64,000 bases of DNA from assembly GCA_903834465.1 (NCBI GenBank), contig CAILJB010000046.1, positions 1 to 64,000 of the forward strand, read 5' to 3'. The position numbers were made by a program, and so were the translations under genes. Source of the stretch: an uncultured Pseudomonadota bacterium. GTDB taxonomy: Bacteria > Pseudomonadota > Gammaproteobacteria > Methylococcales > Methylomonadaceae. Below are positions 56,789 through 63,877 of the stretch, one piece after another; positions within the stretch are counted from its first letter, which is position 1; each line of letters begins with the position of its first letter. The notes beneath the pieces are model-generated. The model did not search any database. It was not told the origin of the DNA and was given only the letters and a program-made list of their open reading frames with translations.

Positions 56789-58504
56789 TTAAATAATCAT
56801 AAAATCTGTATTCGTTAAGGTAGGATGCGTAGATATGCCAACGATTGCGAATTGCACAGCCGCCTTAGAACCACTACCATCGGAATCATAAAAAAGCGCA
56901 CCGTTGCTGGGATTGTAGATAATGCGATCCGATGAATCGAGAGCTTGTGTTGACAGTTTGAAATCATTGACATTTAACGTTCCCACCGCACCTAAAGTGG
57001 TCATAATATTTTTAGCTAATTCGATTTTATCGGTACCATGAACAAACGAGACAATCTTATCGACGTTGGTAGTTGAATTTAATGCGGTATCGAATAGGTA
57101 ATAGTTTGTACCTGCACCGCCATCAAGTGTATCGTTGCCCAAACCGCCATCAAGTGTGTCATTGCCCAAACCACCTTTGATGGAATCATTACCCGCTCCT
57201 CCATCGATACTATCATCACCCGCTCCTCCATCAATAACATCATTACCTGCTAATCCATAAATGGTATCGTTTCCTAGTCCAGCTAAGAGAGTATCGGCAC
57301 CAGCCGTCCCTTTAATTAAGGGAACATTTGTTATATTTAATGTAAAAGTTGTAGGCGTTACAGCACCATGTCCATCATTTGCACTAACGGTAATGGTATT
57401 GACAGGACTATCGGCGGCGGCATAAGAGGGAGTACCGCTAAATGTTCCTGCTGAGGTGAGTTTTAACCATGTTGGTAATGGCTGGTTATCAAAGGTAGCT
57501 GTAAAAGAGAGTTTGTCATTATCAATATCGGAAAACGTATTATTAGGTATTGAAAAACTAAACGCCTTGCCTTCTGTTGCTACTTGGGGTGCGATAGAAT
57601 TAGCTACTGTTGGCGCACTGTTTGCCACAACGGCAGTTACCGCCGATGTGGAACTTGAAGATACACTTTCTGCTGTTCCAGCACCATCAATATAGTTAGC
57701 GATGACACTGATGTTTTTTCCTACGTCATTTTTGCCAAGGAAATAGGTGTTACCCGTTCCCAGCAACGTATTACCAGACTCCCATTGATACGTTATCACG
57801 CCCAAACCATCTAAATCGGCAAGGGAATTGGTCGCGGTTAAAGTTTGTCCCTGAATTGCAGTTCCCGTAATAGAAACTGAGCCAGTGGGAGCATGATTAG
57901 TTACGCCTTGGGTGGTAAAATCGTAACCTGCTGCGTTTGAATAAGCATTTCCAGATAAATCTTTAATTGCGCCTGAATCTATGGTGACAAAGTAATGCGT
58001 ATTGTTTGCAAGGCTAATGTCGGGAGTAATGGTTAACGTATCTTGAGCAAAAGATACTAGCTTACTACTTGCAACAGAAAAGGCTTCTAAAATTGAACCT
58101 GATGCAGAGTTTGCGTGAATGGTTATATTTCCATTACCTGGCTGAATAGCTTCATTAAATTTCAAAATGATGGGGCTATTCGTTGGTACGTTAATCGCTG
58201 AATTTGCGGGTGTATATGAGACGACTTTTGGAAAAAAATTCGTTAAATCAATTTGCTGTGTGCCATTGTTATAGACAAGAATCTCCATATTTTTTAATAC
58301 AATATGACTTGCTAGCTGACCACTAGCCCCCGCGACCGTATCAATTGTTACGCTACCATCGGCGTTTGGAGTAAGTGAAAAACCAGACCTTGTTAAAGTA
58401 CCAAGTCCAAGTGTATCAACGCCACCTAACCCATCCAATGTTCCTGAGTAATAACCCGTTAAGTTCCAACTATCATTGTTATTAGTACCTGTCGTTGTTG
58501 ACAT
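56789..58504 (-). CDS. secreted RTX/Ig-like repeat protein
   Basis: 571 residues from the ATG at 58504, which has AGGTGA upstream (a GTG three codons earlier is possible). No N-terminal signal peptide. Order: an N-terminal Gly/Asn-rich region, a Big_5/SwmB-like Ig domain (about 95-205, Y-T-P-A-N-S-A-I-N-V-P), a second Ig-like region, a cadherin-like putative-Ig domain (about 300-400), then six RTX nonapeptides (G-G-x-G-N-D-x-x-x, about 405-475) that bind calcium, and a C-terminal domain. This is the plan of proteins exported by type I secretion, typically adhesins. No secretion ABC transporter is in the window. It follows apbE by about 38 bases. Confidence 0.82.
   Translation of the reverse strand: MSTTTGTNNNDSWNLTGYYSGTLDGLGGVDTLGLGTLTRSGFSLTPNADGSVTIDTVAGASGQLASHIVLKNMEILVYNNGTQQIDLTNFFPKVVSYTPANSAINVPTNSPIILKFNEAIQPGNGNITIHANSASGSILEAFSVASSKLVSFAQDTLTITPDISLANNTHYFVTIDSGAIKDLSGNAYSNAAGYDFTTQGVTNHAPTGSVSITGTAIQGQTLTATNSLADLDGLGVITYQWESGNTLLGTGNTYFLGKNDVGKNISVIANYIDGAGTAESVSSSSTSAVTAVVANSAPTVANSIAPQVATEGKAFSFSIPNNTFSDIDNDKLSFTATFDNQPLPTWLKLTSAGTFSGTPSYAAADSPVNTITVSANDGHGAVTPTTFTLNITNVPLIKGTAGADTLLAGLGNDTIYGLAGNDVIDGGAGDDSIDGGAGNDSIKGGLGNDTLDGGLGNDTLDGGAGTNYYLFDTALNSTTNVDKIVSFVHGTDKIELAKNIMTTLGAVGTLNVNDFKLSTQALDSSDRIIYNPSNGALFYDSDGSGSKAAVQFAIVGISTHPTLTNTDFMII
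57111..57297 (-). repeat. RTX calcium-binding nonapeptide repeats
   Basis: Within the RTX gene, about seven 27-base units encode G-G-x-G-(N/D)-D-(T/S)-(I/L)-x. Two neighbouring units near 57111-57175 are nearly identical at the DNA level (CCATCAAGTGT-TCNTTGCCCAA), a substrate for slippage or recombination. Confidence 0.8.
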
Positions 58505-58542
58505 GTTTGTCACCTATAAATTTAATGTTAAATGTAAGCAAA

Positions 58543-59466
58543 TCAGTTATTGCTATTTTTTATATAATTTCCGCCACATTGACCATTTATATCAATCCAT
58601 TGATAAGGTAAATTGAGACGGTTTAGCCACGAAATCCCCTCTTCTTCTTTGAGCATTGCAATTGTTGATGCACTGCCAGCCAGCACGCAATAATCACTAA
58701 TGACTGTTATGGAGGAGAAATGTTGAACAGGGTATCCCGTTTTAGGATTAAGAATGTGACCATAGCGTTTACCGTCTATTTCAATACATCTTTCATAATC
58801 GCCACTGCTCGCCATTGCGCCTGATGTGAGTTCAATAACATTCACAACCGCGTTTTTATTTTCAGGATTACGAATGCCAATGTGCCATGCGGATAAATCT
58901 GGATGACTACCGATAACTTTTATATCACCACCCAAATTTATGATGCCATGCTTTATACCCATTTCAGTACATAATGCAGCTGCTCTATCTGCCGCATATT
59001 CTTTTACAATTCCACCAAAATCTAATTCTAATTTAGGTATCGGAAAGCTCAGTTTTGACATTTTCCAGTCAACTTTATCCCATCCAATAAAGTGTAAAAT
59101 TTTGTCAATTTCTGCTTCGCTAGGCATAGCTGGTGTGGCAGTATTGAATTGCCAAATTTTCCTAAGTACGCCAGATGTAATATCAAATAGTCCATCACTT
59201 TGCTCATAGCAAGTGACGGCGTAATTTAGTAAATGAGCCGTTTCGGCATCCACATCAATAGAGCCACCGATTGCGGCACAGCGATTGATTTCAGATAAGA
59301 AACTATCATTTCGATAACGCGAATACTTTTTTTCCAACCGCATCATGTCATTAACAATGTTTTGCGAAACGATTTGAAATTGTTTCTCATCAAAAACATA
59401 TAGCTGGAGTTCGCAGGGTGAACCCATTGAAGTGAAACGACAGCCGAATAAAGAAAGTGTTTTCAA
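58543..59466 (-). CDS. apbE: ApbE-family FAD:protein FMN transferase
   Basis: 307 residues. Transfers FMN from FAD onto Thr/Ser of target proteins. Motifs: Y-S-R-Y-R-N-D-S near 48, L-D-F-G-G-I-V-K-E-Y-A-A-D near 150-162, I-N-L-G-G-D near 178, and A-S-S-G-D-Y-E near 220. A signal peptide is not evident, although most ApbE proteins are exported lipoproteins, so a cytoplasmic or non-classical location is possible. It sits 16 bases after the DUF3570 gene. No FMN-binding-domain protein (NqrC, RnfG or similar) with an obvious flavinylation site is in the window, so its target is unknown. Confidence 0.92.
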   Translation of the reverse strand: MKTLSLFGCRFTSMGSPCELQLYVFDEKQFQIVSQNIVNDMMRLEKKYSRYRNDSFLSEINRCAAIGGSIDVDAETAHLLNYAVTCYEQSDGLFDITSGVLRKIWQFNTATPAMPSEAEIDKILHFIGWDKVDWKMSKLSFPIPKLELDFGGIVKEYAADRAAALCTEMGIKHGIINLGGDIKVIGSHPDLSAWHIGIRNPENKNAVVNVIELTSGAMASSGDYERCIEIDGKRYGHILNPKTGYPVQHFSSITVISDYCVLAGSASTIAMLKEEEGISWLNRLNLPYQWIDINGQCGGNYIKNSNN

Positions 59467-59482
59467 ATTATTTTATTTGAGG

Positions 59483-60823
59483 TCAAAATTTGAAATTGAT
59501 TTTGGCGTTGTACATAGAAAAATTAAAATTATCTACGCTTGTTCCCGCCCCACTGTTCAAACTGTAAGAGTTTCTTCGTTCATAAAAATCAACGCCAAAC
59601 CCCAGCGTTAATTGGTCGAAAAATTCTTTGCTCAGTTGCAGCCCACCACCTAAAGAGCCGAATTGCGCCAAACGATAATCTGATGAATAGTAGCCATCTG
59701 CTCTAGGTGTTAAAAAATAAGGCTGGTAAAAATCGGCAGACCCTTGCGTGTAATACCTCACGGTGGGACTTATTTTCCAATCTTGCCAAATGGGTTGAAT
59801 CCATGTTGCTTCAAATGTATGAGCAATAACGCCCCAAGTATCTGCATAAAATCGATAATCTAAATGTACAGCGGCAGAATTCAATTTAGAAAAATGCCGA
59901 ACATAGCGTGTCAAAATAGCGACCTGATTACGATTGGTCGGTCTTGTATCATGTGAATATCCGCCCGCGTCAGAATAAAACGGGTAAGGTGTTGTAACCC
60001 AAGGCGTATAAACAACTTTATATGGATCAGATAGATACCCTTGACTATAGGTATAAGTAAGATTGGCTTGGAGCAATGAATCTTTATCTAAAATTTGGGT
60101 GACACCAACAATTCCTTGATGTGTTGTTTTATCGCCGCCGACATTTGGTCGTTTATATGAGCTTGGTGCTGGAGGACTCGATAAAGTAGATGTACTTGAT
60201 AAACCCGAAGAGGAATCCGACAAACCAGACGAACTTGATAAGCTAGCGGATGAATCTGATAAGCAGTGCGGCGGACAGTGATCAACTGCCCAAACTCTAT
60301 CTGACGAAAAACCATACCCTGTTTCAAGGGTGGTTGTTTTTTGATTAAAATCGAGCCGTGAATCTATATTGAAAAAATTAGATGTGTAATCATTTTCAGT
60401 AGAAACACCACCACCAAGACTTAGGCTTCCGTAGTCGTGTTTATAAGTTGCTGTGCCATCAATTGAATCTCGAACATCTTTAATCGACGCGCCTGACATC
60501 ATTTGAGATACTTGTCCATTTGATTTCAGCGTATTTGTCACAGGCGAGGCACCCGTCACAATATCTTTCACGCTATTTACTCTGAAATTTAGACGATCCG
60601 TTAGAGGAATTGCCGCAGCAGCTTGATAAACATCGACTTTAATGCGATTTTTACCTTCTTCGTAGTGACTGAATTCTGAATTTAAATCAAGATACTCCGC
60701 TTCTGCTGCCTCAAGATTAGGACTCATGCTGAGTAACGATAGTACAGCCAACGTGAATGTGTTTAATAACGCGGGTTGCGTTGTTTCTTCAATTACATCC
60801 ACAACCACCTCCGCCAACGCCAT
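59483..60823 (-). CDS. DUF3570 family outer-membrane barrel-like protein
   Basis: About 446 residues; ATGs at 60829 and 60823 and a GTG at 60802 preceded by GGAGG are all possible starts inside the DUF4266 3' end. A hydrophobic signal segment (L-L-N-T-F-T-L-A-V-L-S-L-L, ending near E-A-A) is followed by alternating beta strands ending in a terminal Phe (I-N-F-K-F), typical of outer-membrane barrels. DUF3570 motifs include S-G-A-S-I-K-D-V-R-D. Unusual is a loop at about 183-225 with D-H-C-P-P-H-C followed by about 30 Ser/Leu/Pro-rich residues. It is always found, as I recall, with DUF4266 and ApbE; its role is not known. Confidence 0.82.
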   Translation of the reverse strand: MALAEVVVDVIEETTQPALLNTFTLAVLSLLSMSPNLEAAEAEYLDLNSEFSHYEEGKNRIKVDVYQAAAAIPLTDRLNFRVNSVKDIVTGASPVTNTLKSNGQVSQMMSGASIKDVRDSIDGTATYKHDYGSLSLGGGVSTENDYTSNFFNIDSRLDFNQKTTTLETGYGFSSDRVWAVDHCPPHCLSDSSASLSSSSGLSDSSSGLSSTSTLSSPPAPSSYKRPNVGGDKTTHQGIVGVTQILDKDSLLQANLTYTYSQGYLSDPYKVVYTPWVTTPYPFYSDAGGYSHDTRPTNRNQVAILTRYVRHFSKLNSAAVHLDYRFYADTWGVIAHTFEATWIQPIWQDWKISPTVRYYTQGSADFYQPYFLTPRADGYYSSDYRLAQFGSLGGGLQLSKEFFDQLTLGFGVDFYERRNSYSLNSGAGTSVDNFNFSMYNAKINFKF

Positions 60824-61013
60824 AACCACCAGAAGCGGCTTCTTTTGAACTATAACTGTGCGCCATTATCCCAGATTTTAATGGGTCATAATCTAGCATC
60901 ATTTGTGGTTTCGCAAGATTGCCTCTTTCCCACGGATTTACAGTTTGCATACATCCAGCGAGGACAATACAAGCGAAAATTATGATAAAAAATGAATTCA
61001 TTTTTTTAATCAT
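60789..61013 (-). CDS. DUF4266 small lipoprotein with Gly-Cys tail
   Basis: 74 residues from the ATG at 61013, one base after the tlpA stop. Signal peptide with lipobox (C-I-V-L-A-G-C). The mature part has W-E-R-G-x-L-A-K-P-x-M, the DUF4266 core, and ends in G-G-Y-G-V-G-G-G-G-C-G-C-N. The two terminal cysteines and the glycine tail are characteristic of the family and may bind metal, form a disulfide (reduced by the neighbouring TlpA-like protein) or carry a modification. Function unknown. Its 3' end overlaps the start of the DUF3570 gene. Confidence 0.85.
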   Translation of the reverse strand: MIKKMNSFFIIIFACIVLAGCMQTVNPWERGNLAKPQMMLDYDPLKSGIMAHSYSSKEAASGGYGVGGGGCGCN

Positions 61014-61014
61014 T

Positions 61015-61497
61015 TTATTCTGCCAATAATTTTTCAACTTTCTGCGTCACATCGTTTCTATTTTCACTAAAAAAGCCGAGTTCGATATAACGTAGTTTTC
61101 CTTTTTTATCGAATAAATAACTTGATGGCATCGTTTGCACACTAAACAAACCTGCACAAGTTGAATCTGGATTTGTTGCAATAGGAAATGTGACGTTCAT
61201 TTTTTCTAAAAATTTAATGCCATCGGCTTTATCATCATCAACATTGATAGCAATAACGTCTAAGCCTTTCGTTTTAAATTTTTGATGTAATTCTTCCAAA
61301 AAAGGCATCGATTTAGCACAAGGCGCACACCATGAAGCCCAAAAATCAACATAAACAACTTTCCCCGAAGTGGGCATTGATACGTCAGAATTTTTTGATA
61401 TATCTGTCAGCGTGCAAGCAGGCATAGAAGCACCAGTATCTATAGCAAAAGAAATTGGCGAAAAAGCGAGCAGTAAAATAATGGAAATTTTATTCAT
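61015..61497 (-). CDS. TlpA-like periplasmic thioredoxin
   Basis: 160 residues. Signal peptide (I-S-I-I-L-L-L-A-F-S-P-I-S-F-A) then a thioredoxin fold of the AhpC/TSA-TlpA class: V-D-F-W-A-S-W-C-A-P-C-A-K-S with Cys57 and Cys60, and the cis-Pro in T-M-P-S-S near 122. Two further cysteines (near 28 and 110) might form a second pair. Periplasmic disulfide reductase. As first gene of the cluster with DUF4266, DUF3570 and ApbE, it probably keeps thiols in one of those proteins reduced. Confidence 0.88.
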   Translation of the reverse strand: MNKISIILLLAFSPISFAIDTGASMPACTLTDISKNSDVSMPTSGKVVYVDFWASWCAPCAKSMPFLEELHQKFKTKGLDVIAINVDDDKADGIKFLEKMNVTFPIATNPDSTCAGLFSVQTMPSSYLFDKKGKLRYIELGFFSENRNDVTQKVEKLLAE

Positions 61498-61706
61498 ACG
61501 AGGACAAATATAAAAAATTTAGAAGAAGATGGTCGTTTCTACTCATCTTGCGTTTGTCTGTGTTTATAGGCGTATGTACGCTATAACATCAGTAAACAAC
61601 AAGTCACGAACTTACAAGATGAGCAGCTATTGTGGGAAATTTTCCCATGAAAAAATTCTACATGGGATATTTTCCCACGTCAATATACTTTTGCTATACT
61701 GTTCTT
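61498..61706. promoter_or_regulatory. divergent promoter region rich in dyads
   Basis: Between the tlpA operon and the DUF6502 gene. From left to right: CTCATCTTG (61542-61550) with its exact inverse CAAGATGAG (61615-61623), enclosing GCGTA-TG-TACGC (61570-61581); then the two matched palindromes described separately; then TATACT at 61695-61700, a plausible -10 element of the rightward gene. Confidence 0.5.
61633..61677. promoter_or_regulatory. paired palindromic operators upstream of DUF6502 gene
   Basis: TGGGAAA-T-TTTCCCA (61633-61647, perfect) and TGGGATA-T-TTTCCCA (61663-61677, one mismatch) have centres exactly 30 bases apart, about three helical turns. The two units are also inverse copies of each other (GTGGGAAA...CCCATG against CATGGGA...TCCCACG). 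The right unit overlaps the expected -35 position of the TATACT promoter, as a repressor site would. Confidence 0.65.
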
Positions 61707-62561
61707 ATGAACGAAATTCCTGACAATACAAATTCAACTACAATAATGAGCGGCAATACAGCCCTTATAGAAGCTATTCAACGTGTTCTACGACCTTTAG
61801 TGCGCCTGTTATTAGCTAAACAAATCACCTATACATACTTAATTAGTGTATTAAAGCCTTTATTTGTAGATGTGGCGGTAACAGAATTTCAATTAGAAGG
61901 AAAACAGCAAACCGATAGCCGTTTGAGTCTCCTTACAGGCGTACATCGCAAAGATATTCGCCGTTTTCTTGATGAACCCAGAATTGATTTAACCCCGCCA
62001 GCGAATGTGTCATTAGGGGCTAGATTGATTGCGCGATGGAATGGTGAATCCGATTATTTAGACGAACAGGCATTGCCGATGCCATTACCACGATTGATGC
62101 AATCTGATGGTTCGCCATCGTTTGAAAAACTTGTTTGTGATGAGTCAAAAGATATTCGTGCTAGAGTTGTATTAGATGAATGGTTACGATTAGGATTAGT
62201 AGAAATTGATTCCAATGACGTTGTTCATTTGTGTACAGGTGCTTTTGTGCCTGAACAAGGTTTAGAAGAAAAACTGTACTATTTAGGTCGGAATGTACGC
62301 GACCATATCGAGTCTGCTGTTCATAACGTACTCGATGAAAAACCGCCTTTTTTAGAACGCAGTGTTTATTCGGATGGTCTAAGTCCACAAGCAATAGAAG
62401 AATTAGCGCAGCTTGCTGAAAGTATGAGTATGGACGTATTGCGTGCGATTAACAAAAAAGCGCAAGAACTTAAAAAAACCTCATCAGGCAATCAAAAAAA
62501 TCGTATAACACTGGGTGTTTATTTTTATACTGATGCAACGTTAAAGGGAAGAAAATCGTAA
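61707..62561 (+). CDS. DUF6502 family protein, possible regulator
   Basis: 284 residues from the ATG at 61707; the open frame starts at 61632 but runs through the palindromes. I recognise DUF6502-like features: an N-terminal helical region (about 15-100) with L-L-L-A-K-Q-I-T-Y-T-Y-L and L-S-L-L-T-G-V-H-R-K-D-I-R-R-F-L, which looks like a winged helix-turn-helix, then a helical C-terminal part. A DNA-binding role, possibly at the palindromes just upstream, is inference. It is joined to the DUF5666 gene by a TAATG overlap. Confidence 0.7.
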   Translation: MNEIPDNTNSTTIMSGNTALIEAIQRVLRPLVRLLLAKQITYTYLISVLKPLFVDVAVTEFQLEGKQQTDSRLSLLTGVHRKDIRRFLDEPRIDLTPPANVSLGARLIARWNGESDYLDEQALPMPLPRLMQSDGSPSFEKLVCDESKDIRARVVLDEWLRLGLVEIDSNDVVHLCTGAFVPEQGLEEKLYYLGRNVRDHIESAVHNVLDEKPPFLERSVYSDGLSPQAIEELAQLAESMSMDVLRAINKKAQELKKTSSGNQKNRITLGVYFYTDATLKGRKS

Positions 62562-63877
62562 TGCGATTCACTAATCTAATAAAATCGATTTGGTTACTTC
62601 TTTTTGCCAGTACGACTGATACGTTTGCAGAAGAAAATGTTTGTAAAAATAAATACTGGTTACAAAGTCCTATTGTCGAAGCAAAAGCTAATGATGGAAG
62701 TGGTATAGGTGGTACAGGTTTTTCGCAGCCAACCAAATCTGATTTACTAGTGCAACGAAATGGGGAAGGCGAATCTGGAATCGGCGGTACGGGTATTGTA
62801 GGTACAATCTCTGGTTTTGGTAGCATTTGTGTCAATGGCATTGAAATTCAGTATAATCCGACAACGCCAATTGTCGAAGATGGAATTCCAACACAGTCGA
62901 ACCGTTTAGCTCTTGGACAAACTGTTTCGGTTTTAGCAACACATGAATCACAGAATTACTACGCCCAAGAAATTCATGTATTGAATGAAGTTCAAGGTGT
63001 TGTGGCATCCATAGATTCTCCTAACGGTGTGTTTAGCGTTCTTGGTCAAACAGTTCATCTTCCTAATACTTTATTAGAAAAAATAAAAATTGGAGAGAAT
63101 GTCATCGTGAGTGGTAATCGTTTAACGGATGGCAGTATCGAAGCGGTGCGTGTAGAACAACAGCATGAAGCGATGAATAAAGTAAGTTTGATAGGACCAC
63201 TAGAAATTGATAATTCCTCAGGAAATTTTCACATAGGAAAACAAACTGTAGAGCTTTCAAAGAATGAAAATACATTGCAAATTGGTGATGAAGTTAGAAT
63301 TCAAGGCATTTTAAAAGACGGGGTATTGCATGCTGAAACACTCGAACATAACCCTCGCTGGTCTTTTACTTCAAGAGTAGATCAATTGCTTTTACAAGGC
63401 TATGTTAGACAAGGCGATGGCGCAAAAATCAATATCGATGGTGTGAAAATTACTGTAAATGATGTAGCGGACAAAACCCCAAAAACGGGAGAACACGTTA
63501 ACGTTTGGATTAGAGAAACTGAAAAAGGCAGAATGGTATTAGAACATTGGCAGGTAAAAAATATTTTGCAAGAGCAGCATGACCACAGTAATCATTTAGG
63601 TGACTCACCACTTCTTTCATCACCACATAAACTAGAACCTGTTCAAATCAATCTTCCTGATGTCGATGACAAGCCAAACTTATTACATCCAGAAATCAAT
63701 CGTCCTGATGTTGATGATAAACCAAACTTGTTGCATCCAGAAATCAATCGCCCTGATATTGATAAAACGACATTATTACACCTAGATGTTAATCATTCTG
63801 ATATTGATAAACCAGTTGTGTCACATCCAGAAGTCGATCATCCAACCATTGAACATTCAGAGCGTGTAACTCATTGA
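62561..63877 (+). CDS. DUF5666 repeat protein with 16-residue tail repeats
   Basis: 438 residues with a signal peptide (ending near F-A-E-E). Two G-I-G-G-T-G motifs (near residues 48 and 69) introduce the family. Three or four DUF5666-like OB-fold units follow (about 80-330), each with G-x-V-x-V-x-G and L-x-x-G-x-x-V patterns. The tail from about residue 363 carries copies of I-N-R-P-D-V-D-D-K-P-N-L-L-H-P-E and decayed versions rich in His and Asp. Secreted or periplasmic, function unknown. Translationally coupled to the DUF6502 gene and followed 11 bases later by another secreted-protein gene. Confidence 0.78.
   Translation: MRFTNLIKSIWLLLFASTTDTFAEENVCKNKYWLQSPIVEAKANDGSGIGGTGFSQPTKSDLLVQRNGEGESGIGGTGIVGTISGFGSICVNGIEIQYNPTTPIVEDGIPTQSNRLALGQTVSVLATHESQNYYAQEIHVLNEVQGVVASIDSPNGVFSVLGQTVHLPNTLLEKIKIGENVIVSGNRLTDGSIEAVRVEQQHEAMNKVSLIGPLEIDNSSGNFHIGKQTVELSKNENTLQIGDEVRIQGILKDGVLHAETLEHNPRWSFTSRVDQLLLQGYVRQGDGAKINIDGVKITVNDVADKTPKTGEHVNVWIRETEKGRMVLEHWQVKNILQEQHDHSNHLGDSPLLSSPHKLEPVQINLPDVDDKPNLLHPEINRPDVDDKPNLLHPEINRPDIDKTTLLHLDVNHSDIDKPVVSHPEVDHPTIEHSERVTH
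63647..63846 (+). repeat. 48-base tandem repeats in the DUF5666 gene
   Basis: Units start at 63647 and 63695 and are nearly identical (encoding I-N-x-P-D-V-D-D-K-P-N-L-L-H-P-E); from 63743 the pattern continues in shorter, diverged copies (P-D-I-D-K and S-D-I-D-K-P). The unit is a multiple of three, so copy-number change keeps frame. Confidence 0.85.

Follow-up and report, generated by a model that had tools for sequence, protein, structure and literature searches.

A conserved Cys-Gly-Cys tail on a DUF4266 lipoprotein, a candidate thiol arm for a predicted flavin-bearing outer-membrane barrel

What does a very small lipoprotein do with a glycine-rich C-terminus whose last residues are Cys-Gly-Cys-Asn? 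The question is raised by a locus in a window of 64,000 nucleotides (the whole stretch of DNA that was analysed; contig CAILJB010000046.1 of assembly GCA_903834465.1, from an uncultured member of the Methylomonadaceae), where four genes on one strand (58543-61497) encode a thioredoxin, a DUF4266 lipoprotein, a DUF3570 protein and ApbE (Table 1). Since its genome holds two AMO/pMMO subunit A genes and the named DUF4266 relatives come from Methylococcales among others, the host is most likely a methanotroph.

Table 1. Positions of the cluster genes and of the sites discussed in the text.
Feature	Position	Strand	Basis or detail
Thioredoxin, TlpA/ResA-like, with signal peptide and WCAPC; predicted electron partner	61015..61497	-	Redoxin 1e-24
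DUF4266 lipoprotein gene, 74 aa (MIKKMNSFF...GGCGCN)	60789..61013	-	PF14086 match; ATG at 61011-61013
Lipobox Cys (Cys21, LAG-C), predicted lipid anchor; +2 residue Met, not Asp	60951..60953	-	
Gly-rich tail GGYGVGGGGCGCN plus stop	60789..60830	-	ORF translation; family conservation; flexible in prediction
Cys-Gly-Cys codons TGT GGA TGT	60795..60803	-	CGC kept across the family
DUF3570, predicted 16-strand outer-membrane barrel	59483..60829	-	PF12094 6.1e-97
Predicted flavinylation motif 1, TGAS, mature residues 52-55	60545..60556	-	predicted outward end of strand 3
Predicted flavinylation motif 2, SGAS, mature residues 72-75	60485..60496	-	same predicted outward loop, strands 3-4
ApbE FAD:protein FMN transferase, without signal peptide	58543..59466	-	PF02424 8.4e-78, domain from residue 14

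An initial annotation of this DNA had described a 74-residue DUF4266 protein ending in a glycine run and C-G-C-N, and both the translation and the Pfam search confirmed it. The PF14086 profile matches at 1.3e-22 (80.9 bits against a cut-off of 27) over all of its positions (1-50 of 50) and runs to the C-terminus of the protein, and the tail codons (GGT GGT TAT GGC GTT GGC GGA GGT GGT TGT GGA TGT AAT TGA) translate as G-G-Y-G-V-G-G-G-G-C-G-C-N-stop. The same annotation had placed the lipoprotein next to a thioredoxin and a flavin transferase. The thioredoxin does lie directly upstream, the DUF4266 gene starting one nucleotide after its stop codon (TAA-A-ATG), but ApbE is not a direct neighbor: the gene that intervenes, absent from that annotation, encodes DUF3570, the key partner.

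Part of the answer has already been published. The cluster of ApbE, DUF3570, a thioredoxin-like protein and DUF4266 was described among the 'DsbD systems', together with the conserved C-terminal CXC of DUF4266 and its possible redox cycling (Meheust et al., 2021; PMC8238504), and this trait is present in the window protein as CGCN. The same paper reports that DUF3570 of Chlorobium luteolum was experimentally shown to be flavinylated (FMN, by ApbE) at two [S/T]GA[S/T] motifs, and counts 316 clusters without DsbD, so that DsbD is not obligatory. The window agrees with the published system in having all four genes and two [ST]GA[ST] motifs in DUF3570, but differs in that no DsbD stands beside the cluster; the one DsbD found elsewhere in the genome (a 629-aa frame) is on another contig (C5). 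Neither the tail nor its likely redox character is new, and the window's member is a typical one of this kind. When DUF4266 and DUF3570 were each searched in full text, Meheust et al. (2021) was the sole match, and two later ApbE papers do not take up DUF4266 in their relevant passages (PMC11334425, PMC12052999). In the main text of PMC8238504 the words 'barrel' and 'porin' do not occur, and 'outer membrane' occurs once, on TonB receptors. Relative to that text, our analysis adds the outer-membrane placing of DUF3570, the outward position of its flavin motifs, the strict co-occurrence of the two families and the leaderless ApbE.

Every profile-found DUF4266 copy above the cut-off with its tail read carries CGC (73/73, a count that excludes L033, a decayed copy ending in RGCY and two ORFs truncated where their locus ends). 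Tails were read for those matches from profile searches of whole genomes that had a locus (74), and 73 of these 74 end in CGC plus one residue (N in 47, Y in 25, F in 1); the exception, L033, scores 22.9 bits against the cut-off of 27. G-G-C-G-C was likewise complete, column by column, in 80/80 of the named loci, which come from species-representative genomes, a count that is biased, and circular if taken alone, because these loci were seeded partly with GGGGCGCN; their last residue is N in 76, Y in 3 and G in 1. The tail had looked conserved from the window alone, and comparison of the family C-termini bears this out: it is not a variable feature of the family.

The 80 named-locus tails are written with 58 different 18-nt sequences in which all four Gly codons are used, indicating that the constraint acts on the protein. 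In the window the longest DUF3570 ORF overlaps the tail codons, its true start probably lying downstream, and an overlapping frame is also frequent among the named loci (starts such as ATG CAA inside GGA TGC AAY TGA), an arrangement that suggests translational coupling. We rejected the idea that the tail is kept merely through this overlap, because its codons vary widely and because the frame of DUF3570 relative to DUF4266 differs among loci. We likewise dropped the idea that the final N or Y tells short DUF3570 proteins from long ones, since N-ending tails accompany long barrels as well (L092, L117, L145) and a short barrel goes with Y (L239, G598).

Other positions are kept as well: Leu, Ala, Met and a His are each found in 80/80 named loci, as is the lipobox Cys in its aligned column (the lipobox regular expression alone matches 74/80). 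The His is missing from several profile-found members (L015, L022, L027, L028, L239, L240), leaving the cysteines as the most constrained feature, and no lipobox was seen in two profile-found members, L027 and L028. In a decaying copy from a paralogue-rich genome (L089) the tail reads GGGRGCY and the lipobox Cys is also gone.

Within the available flanks of the 80 named loci, several of which are cut by contig ends, DUF4266 is accompanied by DUF3570 in 77, by a thioredoxin in 76, by ApbE in 71 and by DsbD in 25. All aligned family thioredoxins carry CxxC (76/76); an extra Cys at C28 and at C114 of the thioredoxin is found, for each position, in 11/76. The neighbor groups present in at least 4 of the 80 loci comprise an RTX protein, a response regulator, a histidine kinase, DUF5666-like and DUF6502-like proteins and three others. 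Two more pairs of neighbors occur in the window's genome, one made up of a second DUF4266 and a second thioredoxin and the other, at a different place, of a second DUF3570 and a second ApbE.

DUF3570 is the obligate genomic companion of DUF4266. Both domains scored above cut-off in the identical 29 of 398 Pseudomonadota genomes, the sole genome in which just one of the two passes (G018) having a sub-threshold DUF4266 match. In the window's own family, where some of the genomes are incomplete, the two occur in the identical 45/61, and in the phylum to which the Akkermansiaceae record L118 (genome G459) belongs, in the identical 14/145; the three samples overlap in G000 only. Some members of the genera g215, g221, g225, g227, g228 and g238 have both domains and others have neither. 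The copy numbers are not always equal (12 DUF4266 against 15 DUF3570 matches in G415, 4 against 9 in G441), and tandem arrays with some decaying copies were observed in both of these genomes (L083, L084 and L089-L091 in G415; L085 and L086 in G441). The cluster occurs in Pseudomonadota and Chlorobi, in an Akkermansiaceae record and the phylum around it, and in other groups, and it is multiplied in relatives of the window's methanotroph; no viral copies were found.

We modeled mature DUF4266 with AlphaFold2 together with 80 relatives and obtained no confident fold (pLDDT 62). A helix at 24-41 is predicted with modest confidence, and confidence is lowest in the tail, where pLDDT is <50 at mature residues 43-50. 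The initial annotation had regarded the tail as exposed, in keeping with this predicted flexibility, and as resembling a cofactor, metal or modification site; the tail does look like a site of chemical work. That a conserved sequence has no confident fold and always the same partner suggests that DUF4266 folds on this partner. By the Lol sorting rule, a lipoprotein without Asp at position +2 goes to the outer membrane; Asp stands at this position in 0/80 named loci, and DUF4266 is therefore probably anchored there, with its C-terminus 52-58 residues from the lipid Cys.

Mature DUF3570 of the window, modeled with 71 relatives, was predicted to form 16 long strands (pLDDT 89.7, pTM 0.85). The best 50 structure matches listed by Foldseek and by VIA-align were in each case all outer-membrane barrels, led by BamA (Z 22.7 over 284 residues, rmsd 3.6), and it is from these matches that closure of the barrel is deduced. 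Chain B of the Mtr complex is among the matches (6r2q_B; Z 16.1, rmsd 8.7), no better than many other barrels, and we rejected a special MtrB-like resemblance. Searches with the DUF4266 and DUF3570 profiles at E 0.1 returned no solved structure related by sequence. DUF3570 has the even strand number, the C-terminal aromatic residue (F/W/Y in 75/77) and the signal peptide of an outer-membrane barrel; an N-terminal hydrophobic stretch was detected in 64/77 by a crude score.

Successive strands are joined alternately by short turns (24 residues in total) and by mostly long loops (151 residues). In the classic outer-membrane barrel the long loops are outside; on that reading, which combines the model with general rules for outer-membrane proteins, the long loops of DUF3570 would face outward and carry both flavinylation motifs with them (Table 1). 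Among the 45 most conserved positions 39 are on the predicted outward half (21 versus 6 when strands alone are counted; binomial 0.003). The outward loops of ordinary porins are their variable part, whereas here the predicted outward end is conserved, which speaks for a working site there. Mean conservation is 0.29 in the outward loops versus 0.44 in the strands, since two of these loops are long and variable. The Cys residues of the mature window protein are confined to the least conserved loop.

Long DUF3570 proteins (840-1143 aa) were also observed, with a second, His/Met-rich C-terminal domain that nearly always ends in Phe like an outer-membrane barrel (L003:409-2931, from the window's own genome; L063-L092, L105, L117, L125, L128, L145). 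The second domain of the own-genome copy has no Pfam match.

Among the ApbE proteins of these clusters (loci L092-L171 plus the window), 51/68 have at most 30 residues before the first domain motif, 4/68 being without the motif and one motif position (L120) being a false match. The other 13 with the motif include none with a hydrophobic stretch of at least 1.9, and a Cys in or just after the first motif is present in 61 of the 64 found. The cluster ApbE thus looks cytosolic while its substrate is exported, and DUF3570 may be flavinylated before export.

Taking these results together, we think it probable, if by no means assured, that DUF4266 is the mostly unstructured, movable arm of a thiol-to-flavin relay in which CGC cycles between dithiol and disulfide. 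A redox dithiol is the best fit for CGC given the near-universal thioredoxin partner. The periplasmic thioredoxin, recharged by DsbD where this is present, would reduce the CGC disulfide; the Gly-rich arm of DUF4266 would reach into or through the DUF3570 barrel and reduce its FMN; and the FMN would pass electrons to an acceptor at or outside the outer membrane. The direction, the acceptor and the contact are what we infer, and electrons could also flow the opposite way. Several observations count against the relay. The conserved His (80/80 named loci) is more than a thiol shuttle alone would account for and may point to a metal, a leaderless ApbE is odd for an exported substrate, DsbD stands in the flanks of only 25/80 loci and outside the window cluster, and two DUF4266 members are without a visible lipobox. 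If the relay is true, electrons would move to or through the outer membrane by way of flavin and thiols rather than haem, two widespread DUFs would gain a function, and the role of the 'DsbD-type' flavinylation clusters would be explained. Of all the parts of the system, the tail is where mutation could test this idea directly.

The hint from the His leads to a reading that we consider unlikely, in which the two Cys, perhaps with this His about 20 residues upstream and with a second chain, would bind Cu, Fe or Zn and exchange the metal with the barrel. DUF4266 does offer vicinal Cys and a conserved His, copper handling matters in a methanotroph genome with two AMO/pMMO-A genes, and the second C-terminal domain of many partner barrels contains 3.0-7.6% His and 3.5-7.8% Met, against mostly ~2% and ~1% in the first barrel. 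VIT1 iron transporters are moreover noted in 25 of the published clusters (PMC8238504). However, the thioredoxin partner found in 76/80 loci is explained by thiol chemistry, CGC, but not the His, stays invariant when the wider sample is considered, and no metal transporter is among the neighbor groups common to at least 4 of the 80 named loci. We give still less credence to a docking or assembly element, with a tail that plugs, locks or disulfide-joins the barrel and a thioredoxin that maintains the state of its Cys, with no electron relay. The obligate pairing with DUF3570 and the want of a fold of its own would suit a chaperone or plug, and the lipoprotein RcsF threads through outer-membrane barrels (PMC4942254); yet a plug has no obvious need of an invariant CXC, and a lasting disulfide would find no conserved thiol in the barrel, since the Cys of the mature window DUF3570 lie only in its least conserved loop.

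Least credible of all, and in our view very improbable, is a RiPP-like tail, a core peptide enzymatically modified to a thiazole, thioether, flavin or other group. The initial annotation had leaned this way in calling the tail a modification site and almost a core peptide, and a Gly/Cys-rich C-terminus on a short protein in a cluster with the modifying enzyme ApbE does invite the comparison. Core peptides usually vary, however, whereas this tail is invariant, and by eye no RiPP-maturation enzyme is among the neighbor groups common to at least 4 of the 80 loci; we rejected the core peptide on these grounds. Modification of the tail by ApbE, the sole modifier in the cluster, was also rejected, because its motif [ST]GA[ST] occurs in 0/80 named DUF4266 proteins and twice in DUF3570.

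The thiol-to-flavin relay has partial counterparts in known systems. Erv2, an ER enzyme with non-covalent FAD, has its CXC on the flavoprotein itself; the DUF4266 arm and the DUF3570 flavoprotein, in contrast, are separate chains. The CXC at the C-terminus of this FAD enzyme is its shuttle disulfide (PMC4019985), so that Erv2, one of the ERV/ALR sulfhydryl oxidases, has a flexible C-terminal CXC relaying electrons between a thiol partner and a flavin as proposed for DUF4266, a likeness that is functional and does not come from sequence comparison. RcsF resembles the proposed DUF4266 in being a small lipoprotein with a flexible segment through the lumen of a barrel (PMC4942254); RcsF is a stress sensor, and threading by DUF4266 is our proposal. 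The MtrCAB porin-cytochrome conduits, like DUF3570, consist of an outer-membrane barrel with a redox partner. Unlike MtrCAB, the window system has flavin and thiol instead of haem, and no CxxCH haem motif was found in the window DUF3570, DUF4266 or thioredoxin.

More tentatively, the relay could be part of a haem-free outer-membrane electron conduit made of DUF4266 and DUF3570, a possibility that we entertain while holding it doubtful. Electrons would pass from cytosolic thiols through DsbD and thioredoxin to a CGC arm threading the barrel, then to covalently bound flavins at its outer mouth and on to an extracellular metal or other acceptor. Such a conduit would be expanded in some methanotroph relatives as multihaem cytochromes are in metal reducers; one of these relatives has 15 DUF3570 and 12 DUF4266 matches in its genome.

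Further genes flank the cluster in the window. DUF6502 and DUF5666 genes (61632-63877; assigned by Pfam for the window copies) are divergent from it, and they seem to recur beside the cluster in 6 and 8 of the 80 named loci, respectively, as assigned by eye. Downstream of ApbE lies an RTX/Ig-type protein (56789-58513) whose N-terminal domain has similar counterparts in 18 ORFs of 15 loci. Several of these domains carry D-[TS]-[VL]-SGAS, which resembles the ApbE target motif; the window copy reads AGAS.
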